From assembly GCA_017883165.1 (NCBI GenBank), contig JADGOC010000010.1:1-52228 (forward strand): DNA of 52,228 bases, written 5' to 3'. The number at the start of each line of letters is the position of its first letter. The stretch's first letter is position 1. A model generated the notes under the pieces. That model was given only the letters and a program-made list of their open reading frames with translations, had not been told where the DNA came from and made no database searches. A program made the position numbers and the translations under genes. Positions 14,546 to 25,961 of the stretch are shown one piece after another. This DNA comes from Acidobacteriota bacterium. GTDB taxonomy: Bacteria; Acidobacteriota; Vicinamibacteria; Vicinamibacterales; CAVVIG01.

Positions 14546-15889
14546 CTAGCCTTTGCCGTTCGACATGGCCGCCAGGAAGTCGGCGTTCGACTTGGTCTTG
14601 CCCATCTTCGACAGCAACAGCTCCATCGCTTCAACCGGCGACAGGGGAGTCAGCACTTTGCGCAGCACCCACACGCGGTTGAGATCTTCCTTGGGCAGCA
14701 GCAGCTCTTCTTTGCGCGTGCCGCTCTTCAGGATGTCGATCGAGGGGAACACACGACGGTCGGTGAGCTTGCGGTCGAGATGAATCTCGAGGTTGCCGGT
14801 ACCTTTGAACTCCTCGAAGATCACTTCGTCCATGCGCGAGCCGGTGTCGACGAGCGCGGTCGAGATGATCGTCAGCGACCCGCCTTCTTCGATGTTGCGC
14901 GCGGCGCCGAAGAAACGCTTCGGGCGCTGGAGGGCGTTGCTGTCCACGCCGCCTGAGAGCACTTTGCCAGAGGGCGGCACGATCGTGTTGTAAGCGCGCG
15001 CCAGCCTCGTGATCGAATCAAGGAGGATGACGACGTCTTTCTTGTGCTCGACGAGGCGCTTCGCCTTCTCGATCACCATCTCGGCGACCTGCACGTGGCG
15101 CTGCGCCGGCTCGTCGAAGGTCGACGAGATCACTTCGCCGCGGACCGACCGCTGCATGTCGGTGACCTCTTCGGGCCGCTCGTCGATGAGCAGCACGATC
15201 AGGTACACCTCGGGATGGTTGTGCGTGATGCTGTTGGCGATGTTCTGCAGCAGCATCGTCTTTCCCGTGCGCGGCGGCGCGACGATGAGGCCGCGCTGAC
15301 CCTTGCCGATGGGCACCATCAGATCGAGCACGCGGGCCGAGAGATTTTCGGCCTCGGTCTCGAGCGAGATCTTCTCCTGCGGGTAGAGCGGCGTCAGGTT
15401 CTCGAAGAACACCTTCTCGCGCGCCTTTTCGGGCGGCTCGAAGTTGACCGCTTCGACCTTGATGAGCGCGAAGTAGCGCTCGCCGTCCTTGGGCGGCCGA
15501 ATCTGGCCCGACACCGTGTCGCCGGTGTGCAGGTCGAACTTCCTGATCTGCGACGGCGAGACGTAGATGTCGTCGGGCCCGGGGAGATAGTTGTAGTCGG
15601 GCGCGCGGAGGAAGCCGAAGCCGTCCGGCAGCGTCTCGAGCACGCCTTCCGAGAAGATCAGGCCGCTCTTCTCGGCACGCGCTTTCAGGATCTCGAAGAT
15701 CAGCTCCTGCTTGCGCATGCCGGTCGCGCCCGGCACATCGAGCTGCTTGGCGATCTTGGTCAGCGCGCTGACGCTCATGTCCTTGAGCGTCGAGAGCTCG
15801 ATCTTCTCTATTTTTTCGGGGGCCTCGGCGACACCGGCGCCGGGCTTGGTGAGTTGGGGCTGTTCGCCAGCCGGTCGATCAGTTTCCAC
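14546..15889 (-). CDS. rho: Transcription termination factor Rho
   Basis: A hexameric RNA-dependent ATPase that ends transcription. The 447 residues show the N-terminal helical domain ([20 protein letters not shown]), the cold-shock-like RNA-binding domain ([28 protein letters not shown], 83-118), Walker A APPRTGKT (204-211), Walker [16 protein letters not shown], and the Q/R loops through to the conserved end. The start is uncertain: GTG at 15889 gives an N-terminus overlapping engB by 82 nt. An ATG at codon 38 would remove part of the first conserved helix, so the GTG is preferred. Position just after engB suggests shared transcription. Confidence 0.95.
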
Positions 15890-16427
15890 AGTAGGTCCAG
15901 TCCTTCGCCCGTGACCGCCGAAACCGGCAGCACGGAATCTTCAAATACCGATTCGAGTTGTGTGAGGGCCCGCGTCCGCTCCGCCCTCGAGAGCTTGTCG
16001 ATCTTGGTCGCGACAATCGCCAGTTCCGCCGCCGCCGTGTGCATCCATCGCCATGCCGCGCGATCGGCGTCGAGCCCGGGGTGCCGCGAGTCGACCAGCA
16101 GGATCCCCGCCGCCGTCTCGCGTCCGAAGTACGCGCGCGTGAGCGTCTCGAATTCCGCCGCCGACTCGCGTCCGCCCCTCGCGTACCCGTAGCCGGGCAG
16201 ATCGACGAGATAGAGCGGCGCGGCGCTTCCCCGCGTGACGCGGTAGATATTGGCCAGGCGCGTCTTGCCTGGCGCCCCGCTCGTGCGCGCCACGCGCTGG
16301 CGGACGAGCGCGTTGACCAGGCTCGACTTGCCGACGTTCGAGCGCCCGATCAGCGCGACCTCCCGGAGCCCATCGCTCGGGAAATCAGCCGCGGAGGCGG
16401 CGCTCGTGACGAATTCAGCGGCGATCT

Positions 16428-16431
<4 letters not shown>
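15808..16431 (-). CDS. engB: Ribosome-biogenesis GTPase EngB/YsxC, with a likely CTG start
   Basis: A 207-residue GTP-binding protein needed for large-subunit assembly. The G motifs are G1 GRSNVGKS, G2 region [12 protein letters not shown]3 VDLPGYGYA and G4 TKIDK. The family's usual opening (MKI..AEFVTSA, then a glycine/leucine-rich stretch and [12 protein letters not shown]) is matched by codons beginning at CTG 16431, whose last two bases are the first two of the lon stop (CTGA). No ATG, GTG or TTG occurs in frame upstream before the reading frame enters lon. The first internal GTG would remove Walker A. The C-terminal 82 nt overlap rho. The tail [15 protein letters not shown] is a variable extension. 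Confidence 0.9.
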
Positions 16432-20083
<3,652 letters not shown>

Positions 20084-20094
20084 GCTTAGCCTTT

Positions 20095-20122
20095 AGCCCT
20101 TTGCCCTCAGCCCTTTGCCCCT
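20095..20122. repeat. Tandem 14-bp repeat in the clpP-clpX spacer
   Basis: AGCCCTTTGCCCTC (20095-20108) is followed by AGCCCTTTGCCCCT (20109-20122), with two differences. On the coding (minus) strand it reads as purine-rich GGGCAAAGGGCT units leading into an AAGG ribosome site of clpX. It touches the clpP stop codon. Confidence 0.65.
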
Positions 20123-20735
20123 AGGCCCTTTTTCGGATGACATCATCAATAATACCGTATTCTTTGCCCTGATCCGCAGACATGATGTAGTCGCGCTCGG
20201 TGTCGTCCTGGATGCGTTTGACCGTCTGGCCGGTGTGGTGAACCAGGATGTCGTTGATGCGCTCGCGCATCCGCAGGATTTCACGGGCTGCAATATCAAT
20301 ATCGGTCGCTTGGCCCCCGAGGCCAGACATCAGCGGCTGATGAATGACGATCCGTGAATTCGGGAGCGAAAAACGCTTTCCTTTCGCCCCAGCCGCCAGC
20401 AGGACCGCCGCCATCGAGGCCGCCTGACCGATGCAGTAGGTCTGCACGTCCGGCTTGATGAACTGCATCGTGTCGTAAATCGCCATCCCGGCCGTAATCG
20501 ACCCACCGGGGCTGTTGATATACAAGAGGATGTCCTTGTCGGGATCCTCCGCCTCCAGGAAGAGCATCTGCGCGATGACGAGATTGGCAATCTGGTCGTC
20601 AATCGGCGTGCCGATGAAGATGATGCTGTCCTTGAGGAGCCGCGAGAAGATGTCGTACGCCCGTTCGCCGCGGTTGGTCTGTTCGACCACCATCGGCACA
20701 AGTTGCATCCGCAGATCGGGAAGCTGGTAGCGCAT
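20121..20735 (-). CDS. clpP: ClpP, proteolytic subunit of the ClpXP protease
   Basis: A 204-residue serine protease forming a double-heptamer barrel. It has the catalytic triad Ser107 ([11 protein letters not shown]), His132 (RIVIHQPL) and Asp178 ([12 protein letters not shown]), and the [18 protein letters not shown] oxyanion strand. The frame is open for 24 codons upstream, but the ATG at 20735 ([12 protein letters not shown], then [17 protein letters not shown]) fits the family length, and the propeptide is short. It lies 46 nt after tig, so tig-clpP-clpX are probably one transcript. Confidence 0.97.
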
Positions 20736-20781
20736 AGCGTTTGAGTCGGCTGATTGTCGGGGAAATTCGAGCGGGGAAGTC

Positions 20782-22056
20782 TTACGCTTCTCCTGAAAGT
20801 GTAGCACGAGCCATCAGGAAGTCAATCGACTTCTCGCGGCGCAGCCCGGCCGACACTCTTGAGAGCCCGCCCTCACTCACGAGCCGCGCGCGCACGGCGG
20901 CCGGCGTCCGGCCCGTCCGTTCCGCGTGGCGGCCAATTTCCTGATCGATCTCCTCGTTCGTCACGTCGAGCTGCTCGCGCCGCGCCACCTCGTCCAGCAC
21001 GATGGCGCCGGCCACCGCTTCGCGGGCCACCTCGCGCTGGCTCTCGCGGAACGCGTTCCAGTCGACCCCGGCCTGCCGCGGGTCGATGTTCTGCTCGATC
21101 AGCCGGTGCGCGAACTCCTCGAGCCGCCGATCGATCTCGCGATCGATGAGCGAGGGCGGCACCTCGAACGGCACCCGCGCGGCGAGCTGCTTCATGAGCT
21201 GGGCGCGCACGTCGCGCTCGGCGGCGTGCCGCGCTTCGTGCTCGAGATCCTCCCGCACGCGGGCGCGCAGCGCGTCCAGCGTCTCGAACTCCCCGAGGTC
21301 CTTCGCGAACTCGTCGTCGAGCTCGGGGAGGATGCGCCGCTTGATGCCCTTCACCGTCACGGTATACGAAACGTCGGTCCCCGCCAACTCCCCGATCGGG
21401 TGGTCGGCCGGATAGTGAATGTCGAAGCTCTTGGTTGCGCCGACCTCCAGGCCGAGTAGCTGTTCGTCGAACCCCGGCGGGTTCGCCTTCGCGCCGAGCT
21501 CGATGCTGACGTTGTCGTGCGTGTCCGGCTTCCCGTCGGCGAGCCGCTGCAGGTCGACCGTGATCGTGTCGCCGTGATCGACGCCGCGGCCCTCGACCGG
21601 CTCGAACCGCGCCGCGCGGTCGCGCAGCCGCTGCATCGCGAGGTCGACCGCTTGCTCTTCCACCTTGCTGGACGTGCGCGTGAGCGCCACCGTGGTGTAA
21701 TCACCCGGATCGAACGACGGCACCGTGTCGAAGGACGCCGTGAAGGTGAGCGGCTGCCCTTCGTCGACCGTGACATCGCGGATGTCCGGCGTGTCGACCG
21801 CTTCGACGCCCCGCTCGCGCAGCGCATCGTCCACCGCGCGCGGAATCAGATCGTGCACCACGTCGTGAAGGATCTGATCCTTGTAGCGCTGCTTGATGAC
21901 GCGCGACGGCGCCTTGCCGGGGCGGAACCCCGGGACGCGCGCCTTGCGCGAGTAGTCGCGCGTGATGCGATCGATTTCCGCGTCGACCACGTCCTGCGGG
22001 ATTTCGACGCGCACGTTCTTGCGCGTCTCGTTGACGTCGACAAATTCCGTTTTCAT
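20782..22056 (-). CDS. tig: Trigger factor, ribosome-bound chaperone
   Basis: A 424-residue three-domain chaperone and prolyl isomerase. The ribosome-binding signature GFRPGKAP is at 43-50. The central FKBP-like domain runs from about 150 to 240 ([16 protein letters not shown], then [17 protein letters not shown]). The C-terminal helical arm fills the rest ([26 protein letters not shown]). It is followed by clpP, clpX and lon, so folding and proteolysis of new chains are expressed together. It lies 85 nt behind tRNA-Leu and is probably read from the tRNA promoter, since I see no other strong promoter in that gap. Confidence 0.96.
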
Positions 22057-23131: not shown

Positions 23132-23401
23132 ATGTCCGACTTCTATCACGGTCTGTTCCGCTCTCACACCGGCGCTGATGGCCGTACGCATCTGATGCGC
23201 CACGAGGCGGGGCCAGCCAGGATTCCGTGCCCGACCACCGGGCGTCCCCTGCGCGTGGCGACGATCGATGCGAACACGGCGGCGATTTGCCCCGCCTGCG
23301 CGAGCCACGGGCAGGGCGGCTTCGTGTCGTTCGACGGCGATCTACGCATGGCCTACGCCTGTCCGGAGTGCCGTCAGCTCGTCTGGGTCGAAGGCGCGTA
23401 G
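23132..23401 (+). CDS. Small zinc-ribbon-like protein, unknown function
   Basis: An 89-residue protein beginning MSDFYHGLFRSHTGADGR. Two cysteine pairs (ICPACASHG and YACPECRQL), with a further cysteine in RIPCPTTG, suggest a zinc ribbon. The rest is unremarkable, and no family is recognised. The ATG at 23132 is preferred over an in-frame ATG at 23093 because it follows the promoter-like AT-rich part of the divergent spacer. The last 28 bases overlap the end of the convergent Dam gene, an unusual arrangement that supports both frames only if both proteins are real. Confidence 0.55.
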   Translation: MSDFYHGLFRSHTGADGRTHLMRHEAGPARIPCPTTGRPLRVATIDANTAAICPACASHGQGGFVSFDGDLRMAYACPECRQLVWVEGA

Positions 23402-24339
23402 CTCGCCGCGCGGCTGATATTCGTAATCAAGTACTCTTCCACCGGGCCGCGGCGCGCGCCGTTGCTGTTGATCGCGCGGCGGGCCGGCACGCGCAGCGCG
23501 CGGAGCCCCGCTTCGCACGCCTCGGCATTCGCGTCGTACAGCGCCGCGATCTCCTCCGCGGTGGAATTGCTCAGCAGCACGTGACACCCGCGCCGCGCCA
23601 GCGACACGATGGCCTGCTGCAGCCGCTGCTGGTCGTGCCGATCGAAGCGTGTCATCGTGTACGACGTGAAGTTCGCCGTCTGGCTCAACGGCGCGTACGG
23701 CGGATCGACATACAGAAAATCGCCGGCCGTCGCCTCCTCGATCGCCCGCTCGAACGATCCGTACTCCAGCCGCACGCGCGGATCGCCGAGCGCGCCGGCC
23801 ACGCGCAGCAGCTTCTCCCGATCCAGAATCTTCGGCCGATCGTAGCGCCCCGCCGGCACGTTGAACGCGCCGCTCGCATTGACGCGGAACAACCCATTGA
23901 ATCCGGTCCGGTTGAGATAAATGAGCATCGCCGCCAGCTCGGGCGTGTACGCGATGCGGCCATCGGCCAGGCGGCGCTCCTCGCGCAGCGGATTGAATCG
24001 GCGATCGCGTACGTCGTAGTAGTGGGCGCGGCCGTCGCGCGCATGCGCCGTGGCAAGCCGGTCGAGCACCGCCGCCACCTCGTCCGGCTCGTCGCGCACC
24101 GCCTCGTAGCACCCGATGAGATCGGCGTTGGAGTCGATGAGGATGACGTCGTGGCCGCGCAGGAGGCCGGCGCTGTGGAGATCGAAGAACACCGCGCCGC
24201 TGCCAAAAAACGGTTCGATGTACCGCCCGAACGCGCGCGGATAGAACGGCCGCAGATGCGGCAGGAGCTGCCGCTTGCCGCCGACCCACTTCAGTAAGGG
24301 ACGAACTTGTATCAGATTCAGATCTCTTTTTCCGCCCAC
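23374..24339 (-). CDS. Dam-type DNA adenine methyltransferase
   Basis: About 321 residues. Visible motifs are the FxGG-type SAM motif as LLKWVGGKRQLLP, YIEPFFGSGAVFFDL, the catalytic DPPY (VDPPYAPLSQTANFTSYT) and the final LLSNS. This order matches the Dam/D12 family that makes N6-methyladenine, usually at GATC. No ATG starts this frame: GTG at 24339 lies inside the anti-sigma gene, and CTG at 24315 just after its stop would give the standard family N-terminus (IQVRPLLKWVGGKR). No restriction endonuclease is adjacent, so it looks like an orphan methylase. It is translated behind the sigma/anti-sigma pair and may belong to that regulon. Confidence 0.85.
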   Translation of the reverse strand: MGGKRDLNLIQVRPLLKWVGGKRQLLPHLRPFYPRAFGRYIEPFFGSGAVFFDLHSAGLLRGHDVILIDSNADLIGCYEAVRDEPDEVAAVLDRLATAHARDGRAHYYDVRDRRFNPLREERRLADGRIAYTPELAAMLIYLNRTGFNGLFRVNASGAFNVPAGRYDRPKILDREKLLRVAGALGDPRVRLEYGSFERAIEEATAGDFLYVDPPYAPLSQTANFTSYTMTRFDRHDQQRLQQAIVSLARRGCHVLLSNSTAEEIAALYDANAEACEAGLRALRVPARRAINSNGARRGPVEEYLITNISRAASYAPSTQTS

Positions 24340-24791
24340 CACCAGATGCCCAGCGCCGCGGCGAGCAGCGCCGTCGCGCCGGCGTAGACCGGTACCGCCG
24401 GCGCGGCGCGGCGCGCGAGCCTCATGACGCCGCCGCTCATGACGTCCATCGCGCCGTTCCCGATCGACGTCACGCCGGCGCGGTTGAGCAGGACGACCAC
24501 GCCGCCGACGACCGCCAGCGCGACCACCCCCAGCGCGAGGTTGAAGCCGACGTCGAGAAACTGCTCGCTCCGCCAGCGCCGCCGGCGCAGAATCGTCATC
24601 GTACGCGCGGTGAAGCGCGCCGGCGCGCGGGGCACCGGGCGCGCCCGCAGCGCCTGTTCGAGCCGCCTCGCGCTGTCGAGCGCCGCCGCGCAGTTGGGGC
24701 ACGTCGCCAGATGCGCCGCCACGCGCCCTTCGGGCGTCAGCTCGCCGTCCGCGATCGATTCGACGAGATCGAGGGCTTCGTCGCAGAACAT
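24318..24791 (-). CDS. Membrane anti-sigma factor with zinc-finger domain
   Basis: A 157-residue protein. The N-terminal anti-sigma zinc domain has HLATCPNC (His27, Cys31, Cys34) after an acidic stretch (CDEALDLVESIADGELTPEG). Hydrophobic segments near 84-104 (LALGVVALAVVGGVVVLL) and 135-152 (VYAGATALLAAALGIWWW) anchor it in the inner membrane. It would hold the adjacent ECF sigma factor until a signal arrives. The start is 3 nt after the sigma stop (TAAgacATG), so expression is coupled. The final segment overlaps the possible Dam start. Confidence 0.85.
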   Translation of the reverse strand: MFCDEALDLVESIADGELTPEGRVAAHLATCPNCAAALDSARRLEQALRARPVPRAPARFTARTMTILRRRRWRSEQFLDVGFNLALGVVALAVVGGVVVLLNRAGVTSIGNGAMDVMSGGVMRLARRAAPAVPVYAGATALLAAALGIWWWAEKEI

Positions 24792-24794
24792 GTC

Positions 24795-25352
24795 TTACTT
24801 CAACTCCGTCTCGAGCAGCCGCCGGAGCTGTTGCTTCGCGCGATAGAGCTGCGTCTTCACCGTCCCGAGCGGCAGACCCAGCGCCTCCGCCAGCTCCTCG
24901 TAGCGCACGCCGTCGAGATAATGCGCCGCCACCAGGAGCCGCGCATTGGCCGGCAGCCGCGCGACCGCTTTCTCCAGCCGATCGCGCAGCTCGAAATCGC
25001 GGAAGCCTCGATCCACCGCCGACGGCGTGTGCCGCTCGCCCGTGCGCTCATCGTCGAGCGACACCGTCGTCGTCGCCAGGGCCGGACGCGCCTGATTCTG
25101 CACGCACACATTGGCGACGATGCGGTAGATCCACGTGGAGAGACGCGCCTCGCCGCGGAAATACGGCAAGCCCCGATGGATGCGAAGGAAGACGTCCTGC
25201 GCCAGGTCTTCGGCCCGCGATTTGTCCTGGACCGTGCGCGCAATCAGCGCGAAGACCAGGTCCTTGTAGCGGTCGACCAGCTCCTCAAATGCGCCTTCAT
25301 CGCCTCGGCGGCAGCGCTCGACGAGCTCGCGCTCATGGACGGGGTCAAACAT
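24795..25352 (-). CDS. ECF-type RNA polymerase sigma factor
   Basis: A 185-residue sigma-70-family factor with only region 2 and region 4. Region 2 is FEELVDRYKDLVFALIART through DLAQDVFLRIHRGL and LSTWIYRIVANV. Region 4 is LPANARLLVAAHYLDG through YEELAEALGLPLGTVKTQLYRAKQQLRRLLE. Frame is open upstream, but the ATG at 25352 (MFDPVHERELVERCRRGDEGAF) fits the family. The promoter elements GTGAAACAATTC and TCTAAT precede it and are repeated for the divergent gene, which indicates autoregulation. The -10 lies 10 nt from the ATG, so the message may be leaderless. Confidence 0.92.
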   Translation of the reverse strand: MFDPVHERELVERCRRGDEGAFEELVDRYKDLVFALIARTVQDKSRAEDLAQDVFLRIHRGLPYFRGEARLSTWIYRIVANVCVQNQARPALATTTVSLDDERTGERHTPSAVDRGFRDFELRDRLEKAVARLPANARLLVAAHYLDGVRYEELAEALGLPLGTVKTQLYRAKQQLRRLLETELK

Positions 25353-25362
25353 CCGCCATCGT

Positions 25363-25394
25363 ATTAGAGCATGCCGGCGGGGGAATTGTTTCAC
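25363..25394 (-). promoter_or_regulatory. ECF-type promoter of the sigma/anti-sigma operon
   Basis: Minus strand GTGAAACAATTC (25394-25383), 14 nt, TCTAAT (25368-25363). The -35 half contains TGAAAC, as in several ECF promoters. The arrangement is identical in sequence and spacing to that of the divergent promoter at 25416-25447, strongly suggesting that this sigma factor reads both. Confidence 0.8.
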
Positions 25395-25415
25395 TTCCTT
25401 ACGGGAAACCCCGAC

Positions 25416-25447
25416 GTGAAACAATTCAGCGGCGGTTCCAGTCTAAT
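25416..25447 (+). promoter_or_regulatory. ECF-type promoter of the divergent membrane-protein gene
   Basis: GTGAAACAATTC (25416-25427), 14 nt, TCTAAT (25442-25447). The 12-bp upstream element is a perfect inverted copy of that at 25383-25394, with 21 bp between the two. Transcription would start near 25454, about 25 nt before the ATG. Confidence 0.8.
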
Positions 25448-25478
25448 CTGATCGAGTCGGTCTCTCTTTGGAGGCGTG

Positions 25479-25961
25479 ATGCACGAGTGGGTTGGAATGG
25501 TGTGGGTGCTGGTCCCGATCGTGGCCATTATCGGGGGGATTGCTTCCGCGATCGCCGCGACGTTTGCCAAAGCCCGCGTGCGCGAGCTTGAAATCCGAGA
25601 GCGCATCGCCCTCATCGAGAAGGGGATCGTCCCGCCGCCCGAAGTGGATCCGCAGGGATTCGACCGCGGAATCGACCGATACGACAGCCTGCGCGCGTGG
25701 CCCCGCGGCTACGCCACCGCCAGCGCCGGCCGTCATCGCCGCGCCGGGATTACGCTCCTCGGCGTCGGCTTTGGCCTCATGGTCCTCATCGGCTTCAGCG
25801 GCAGCCCGGACGAAGGGTTCGCCGTGGGCGGATTCATCTGCGTGCTGGGGATCGCATTTCTGATCAACAGCTTCTTCGAGTCGCGCCCGCTGCCCTCTGC
25901 GCCTCCCAATCCGTCAGCACCCCCAGGGCCCCCCGCGCCCCGCTCGCCGATCCAGCCGTAA
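25479..25961 (+). CDS. Small membrane protein, DUF6249-like, likely target of the ECF sigma factor
   Basis: A 160-residue protein with three hydrophobic segments: residues 6-27 (VWVLVPIVAIIGGIASAI), and a pair near 91-107 and 115-132 (GITLLGVGFGLMVLIGF; GFAVGGFICVLGIAFLI). Between them is RELEIRERIALIEKGIVPPP, a motif shared with DUF6249-type proteins, and the C-terminus is a proline-rich tail. GGAGG at 25470-25474 sets the ATG at 25479; a GTG three bases earlier is less well spaced. The function is unknown. Its promoter is a mirror copy of the sigma gene promoter, so it probably serves in the same envelope response. Confidence 0.8.
   Translation: MHEWVGMVWVLVPIVAIIGGIASAIAATFAKARVRELEIRERIALIEKGIVPPPEVDPQGFDRGIDRYDSLRAWPRGYATASAGRHRRAGITLLGVGFGLMVLIGFSGSPDEGFAVGGFICVLGIAFLINSFFESRPLPSAPPNPSAPPGPPAPRSPIQP

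Follow-up and report, generated by a model that had tools for sequence, protein, structure and literature searches.

An intergenic region between an ECF sigma factor gene and a divergently oriented gene for a DUF6249 membrane protein carries two mirror-image elements, which are very probably two promoters arranged head to head and recognized alike by RNA polymerase holoenzyme containing the adjacent ECF sigma factor. Such an arrangement would combine autoregulation of the sigma/anti-sigma operon with expression of the divergent DUF6249 gene. The window, that is, the whole 52,228-nucleotide stretch of DNA analysed here, belongs to an acidobacterial genome of 4.24 Mb. Comparison of sequences among related loci established that the elements exist, that the spacing within each is fixed, that they are conserved together with the sigma gene, that they depend on how the genes are oriented and that both -10 elements co-vary.

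Results

A pattern search of the entire genome located GTGAAACAATTC-N14-TCTAAT with 0 mismatches at positions 25363-25394 (reverse strand) and 25416-25447 (forward strand), pointing apart, and thus bore out the sequence-only reading that had described identical elements on both strands. These are the sole sites in the genome with fewer than three mismatches; the third site within 3 mismatches (C198:22472, 3 mismatches) has no obvious ECF gene nearby and is at background level. Across the window, the pattern search returned no further copy of GTGAAACAATTC with at most one mismatch beyond the two arms. On the sigma side, the exactly matching putative -35 element GTGAAACAATTC occupies 25383-25394 (reverse strand; core TGAAACAAT at 25385-25393) and the putative -10 element TCTAAT, preceded by TGC and followed by AC, occupies 25363-25368 (reverse strand). 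On the opposite side, the -35 candidate, again an exact match, lies at 25416-25427 (forward strand; core TGAAACAAT at 25417-25425) and the -10 candidate TCTAAT, preceded by a conserved CCAG, at 25442-25447 (forward strand). The arms are separated by 21 bp (25395-25415) and, because the bases flanking them are unpaired, the inverted repeat is exactly 12 bp long. A general repeat search of this short stretch did not list the 12-bp inverted repeat, which the pattern search and the sequence itself do show.

The reverse-strand promoter precedes a gene for an ECF sigma factor of 185 amino acids (24795-25352, reverse strand), whose ATG start at 25350-25352 was taken from the ortholog alignment; an upstream TTG (25424) was rejected as the start, its frame being interrupted by stop codons in several orthologs. 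The protein contains Sigma70_r2 (residues 25-85) and Sigma70_r4_2 (residues 124-176) domains in Pfam, scores 94.6 bits against NCBIfam sigma70-ECF (cut-off 42.9) and, with sigma2 and sigma4 only and a short linker between them, has the make-up of a group IV sigma factor. Beginning 3 bp downstream of its stop codon is the gene for a membrane zf-HC2 anti-sigma factor of 157 amino acids (24318-24791, reverse strand; Pfam zf-HC2, 29.2 bits, cut-off 22.2) with the motif HLATCPNC and two hydrophobic segments. An adjacent anti-sigma gene is a hallmark of ECF sigma factors, this adjacency is conserved in the group, and the two genes are probably co-transcribed; all 16 named loci of the group retain the Hx3Cx2C motif. 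On the forward strand, the DUF6249 gene (25479-25961) encodes a membrane protein of 160 amino acids with three hydrophobic segments (Pfam PF19762, 35.3 bits, cut-off 33), which is the single PF19762 match in the whole genome; all 17 aligned members of the group match this family at E values up to 0.05. With the sigma, zf-HC2 and DUF6249 proteins all over their Pfam cut-offs, the gene order proposed from sequence alone, sigma and anti-sigma in one direction and a DUF6249-like protein in the other, proved right. A structure model of the DUF6249 protein, of moderate confidence (mean pLDDT 79.9, pTM 0.47), comprises three long helices and one short one, and a PDB search with it gave no significant fold match.

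The sigma ATG lies 10 nt past its -10 element (window positions 25350-25368) and in nearly all orthologs this distance is about 10-15 nt, so that the sigma mRNA should be near-leaderless; earlier ATGs in genomes G000 and G014 and at locus L077 are not the aligned start, and the leader is longer at L082. The DUF6249 gene, unlike the sigma gene, is usually preceded by a GGAGG-like site, and in the window a GGAGG Shine-Dalgarno sequence (25470-25474, forward strand) together with similar sites before most orthologs' starts favours ATG 25479 over GTG 25476 as the start. Downstream of the sigma operon and on the same strand, a Dam-like adenine methylase frame (approximately 23374-24330) starts where the anti-sigma gene ends and may belong to the same operon, and rho-, lon-, clpX- and trigger factor-like genes follow at 14546-22056.

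A set of 100 relatives contained 11 further genomes with an ortholog of the sigma factor (55-83% identity over the alignment). Six more (L077, L078, L079, L082, L083 and L085) came from a scan of 84,980 species genomes, for a total of 18 species, and every record that bears a name is from Acidobacteria/Acidobacteriota or a Vicinamibacterales MAG. Both mirrored promoters lie beside the sigma and zf-HC2 anti-sigma genes in 18/18 species, and a DUF6249-type gene is divergent in every ortholog locus whose contig extends far enough. Within the first 60 relatives, a good DUF6249 match is present in exactly the 10 genomes that bear the ortholog.

GAAACA and TCTAA are invariant in the 36 promoters from both sides of the 18 loci, and TGAAACAAT is followed by exactly 16 nt before the -10 element in 34 of them (17 of 18 species), with 0-2 mismatches to TGAAACAAT/TCTAAT. 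The exception, G068, was picked out by an N17-spacer scan that served as the spacer control: it has 17 nt on both sides, the spacing having moved in step. An AAC-containing -35 element and an ECF-type -10 element, as expected of an autoregulated ECF promoter, are thus conserved before the sigma factor's own gene in all 18 species. Constraint is limited to TGAAACAA(T) and TCTAA(T); the 12-bp arm varies at its outer G and its final TC, which leaves TGAAACAAT as the core. The spacers, described as unrelated from this one sequence, are not entirely free: each side has its own conserved ending in the 2-4 nt directly before TCTAAT, mostly C[CG]AG on the partner side and [TC]G[CT] on the sigma side; these endings may set different promoter strengths.

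The exact mirrored pattern TTAGA-N18-TGTTTC-N{0-30}-GAAACA-N18-TCTAA was matched in 16 of the 193 genomes analysed for the class, at one site each (reversed control, 0), and the matching sequences agree with the sigma loci; this count misses G018 and G068 solely owing to the gap and spacer limits of the pattern. When 12 genomes were scanned with at most two mismatches over the 15 specified bases, nearly all matches fell at this locus and the few others were at control level. The regulon scan proposed from sequence alone recovered both known sites and yielded no other above background. Judged by such matches, the evident regulon consists of two promoters serving sigma, anti-sigma and DUF6249, and weaker members with more than two mismatches could be missed. 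With just two sites evident in the genome, DUF6249 would be the main output or a third component of the system.

More distant relatives of the sigma factor, mostly 33-44% identical, were found in many phyla in the 84,980-genome scan, and 62 of their loci had sufficient upstream DNA for analysis. A divergent GTTTC..GAAAC pair is present in 24/62 of these, against 1 convergent and 2-3 tandem pairs and a shuffle mean of 0.45. The DUF6249 candidates at distant loci exceeded the Pfam cut-off in 10/10 cases in one set and 8/9 in another. When the 62 loci were sorted by DUF6249 orientation with a rebuilt HMM, allowing a gap of up to 50 nt between the mirrored elements, mirrored GAAAC elements were found at 25 of 26 loci with a divergent DUF6249 gene, at 0/18 with a co-directional one and at 1/18 with none detected, although the loci are related and such counts overstate their independence. 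In the lone mirrored locus of the last class, L106, a DUF6249 match that scores under the cut-off lies in divergent orientation. The co-directional loci, mainly from Myxococcota, carry GAAAC-N17-GGTC just before DUF6249 in 14/18 cases (Markov mean 0.05). At L097, L099, L101 and L117-L123 (Myxococcota, e.g. Nannocystis), the gene immediately upstream of sigma is a co-oriented DUF6249 gene, itself preceded by GAAAC-N17-GGTC. The mirrored elements track gene orientation and therefore behave as promoters must.

The -10 element differs by lineage, being TCTAAT in the acidobacterial group and CGTA-like in Eremiobacterota, and the two -10 regions of one locus resemble each other more closely than -10 regions taken from different loci (0/5000 shuffles). 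With the distant loci alone and near-duplicates thinned, the observed likeness was reached in 5/5000 shuffles. In the same shuffle test the spacers of the two sides showed no within-locus likeness beyond that of shuffled loci. Co-variation of the -10 elements but not of the spacers is what a single sigma factor reading both sides predicts. Phylogenetic footprinting, with its fixed -35/-10 distance, variable arm gap, co-varying -10 elements and dependence on orientation, thus supports the ECF promoter reading made from the single sequence, and the genomic comparisons indicate that the sigma/anti-sigma/DUF6249 partnership and its promoter logic recur across distantly related phyla.

In Eremiobacterota, the divergent operon at L147 (1402-2925, reverse strand) pairs a DUF4097 (Toastrack) gene with a DUF6249 gene behind it, and other loci of that phylum have DUF6249 at a similar distance. 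A Toastrack protein is present in the Lia envelope-stress system, and its occurrence beside DUF6249 therefore points to the cell envelope. A sigma/anti-sigma locus from Chloroflexia (L109, 41% identity) has TGAAACAAT-N16-TCTAAC upstream (2882-2911), and DUF6249 was not detected nearby.

Discussion

The elements could be read in other ways. First, both could be ECF promoters that a different or additional ECF sigma factor also, or mainly, recognizes on one or both sides. The genome has 16 ECF-like matches, hence at least 15 other ECF-like genes, and GTCTAA-like -10 elements precede some of these, such as GGAACTTTT..GTCTAAA before the paralog L005. However, TGAAACAAT-N16-TCTAAT was not seen upstream of the paralogs, the promoter pair accompanies the orthologous sigma gene in every one of the 18 species, the exact mirrored pattern occurs nowhere else in the 193 genomes and the -10 elements shift together by lineage, all of which makes control by another sigma factor improbable. 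The sequence upstream of L005 (G000:C276; 41% identity), GGAACTTTT...GGGGTCTAAAT (GGAAC..GTCTAA), resembles the paralog's own promoter; it combines the same TCTAA -10 with a different -35, so that the -35 may be what separates the ECF sigma factors of this genome.

Second, the 12-bp inverted repeat could be bound as an operator by a dimeric repressor or activator, with the TCTAAT boxes incidental or belonging to other promoters. In this one genome the perfect palindrome with its 21-bp gap does look like an operator. The ortholog comparison contradicts this. The T-to-T gap of TGAAAC between the arms ranges from 1 to 36 nt across the 18 species with no conserved phase, whereas a dimeric operator would have constant half-site spacing; a constant -35/-10 distance with a variable arm gap argues against an operator of fixed geometry, as a dimeric regulator needs the reverse. 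Moreover, the arms are symmetrical at 12/12 positions in this genome alone and at 8-11/12 in the other orthologs, each arm keeping its fixed distance from TCTAAT, and the mirrored pair is absent from the co-directional loci, most of which have a GAAAC site before DUF6249. The perfect repeat, though exact here, is consequently private to this genome and not a conserved unit, and we regard an operator as very improbable. Finally, a role for the repeat at the RNA level, as a transcribed hairpin, terminator or leader structure, has a close to negligible chance of being right: its arms could pair in a read-through transcript, but both predicted starts are downstream of it, no T-run is present, the loop length varies freely, and sequence is conserved beyond pairing, with TCTAA at a fixed distance.

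The favoured reading, a promoter pair served by the adjacent sigma factor, suggests a simple circuit. One promoter would drive the sigma gene together with that of the membrane-anchored zf-HC2 anti-sigma factor, creating positive autoregulation, and the opposite promoter would drive the divergent DUF6249 gene. In the resting state the anti-sigma factor would keep sigma at the membrane until an envelope signal releases it, whereupon sigma4 of the freed factor would read TGAAACAAT and sigma2 would read TCTAAT on both strands, and sigma/anti-sigma and DUF6249 would rise together. As to what the DUF6249 protein may do, we lean slightly towards an envelope effector; a feedback or sensing partner of the anti-sigma factor seems rather unlikely. 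A broader proposal, which we put at somewhat less than an even chance, is that the ECF sigma factor, the zf-HC2 anti-sigma factor and DUF6249 form an ancient three-part envelope-stress switch shared by many phyla, with DUF6249 as the only conserved output (plus Toastrack DUF4097 in Eremiobacterota), with mirrored promoters that co-evolve with sigma and would therefore give each lineage a private promoter code, and with DUF6249 acting directly on the anti-sigma factor or the membrane as the third component.

The closest solved structures to this sigma factor by sequence are those of P. aeruginosa sigma-H (AlgU), SigW and RpoE. It shares the domain order of the RpoE-like factors (E. coli RpoE, P. 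aeruginosa AlgU), its best match being 6in7 (2.1e-35); those factors are likewise autoregulated with a membrane anti-sigma factor, use a GGAACTT -35 and an anti-sigma factor of the RseA/MucA type, and to our knowledge have no divergent DUF6249 gene. B. subtilis SigW, with its zinc-motif anti-sigma factor RsiW, is also related by sequence (5wuq, 1.2e-31). The sigma4 recognition helix reads PLGTVKTQLYR here and PVGTVKTRIHR in SigW (6jhe), and the -35 element of SigW is TGAAAC; the shared GTVKT, taken with the logic of autoregulation, suggests that the sigma factor studied here binds and transcribes from both promoters. SigW has a large regulon and CGTA-type -10 elements in place of TCTAAT, although the Eremiobacterota members of the group do use CGTA-like ones, and we know of no DUF6249 partner of SigW.

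The EcfG regulon of Alphaproteobacteria is large. Autoregulation, AAC-containing -35 boxes and co-transcribed anti-sigma genes are typical of ECF sigma factors, and in the EcfG/PhyR-NepR general stress response an ECF operon and a divergent partner are both expressed from promoters of that ECF, with CGTT as the -10 (PMC8103513). There, the partner is a regulator, PhyR, where the present loci have a membrane protein, and NepR takes the place of the zf-HC2 protein as anti-sigma factor. An autoregulated ECF sigma factor with a divergent partner is therefore already known, and it is the breadth of the present group and the DUF6249 context that add interest. No description of the sigma/anti-sigma/DUF6249 triad, or of DUF6249 in such a role, was found in the literature searched, the main ECF reclassification lying outside its reach, and the search gave nothing relevant on DUF4097 with ECF sigma factors.

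In summary, these loci are a naturally occurring collection of promoter pairs, each expected to be read on both sides by one sigma factor, and such a collection would help to decode how ECF domains 2 and 4 choose their -10 and -35 elements, and the mirrored pairs are candidate orthogonal bidirectional promoters for synthetic circuits. DUF6249, an uncharacterised domain, is placed in a regulatory setting, since in many phyla it partners one ECF sigma/anti-sigma pair, and thereby gains a testable role in envelope stress.
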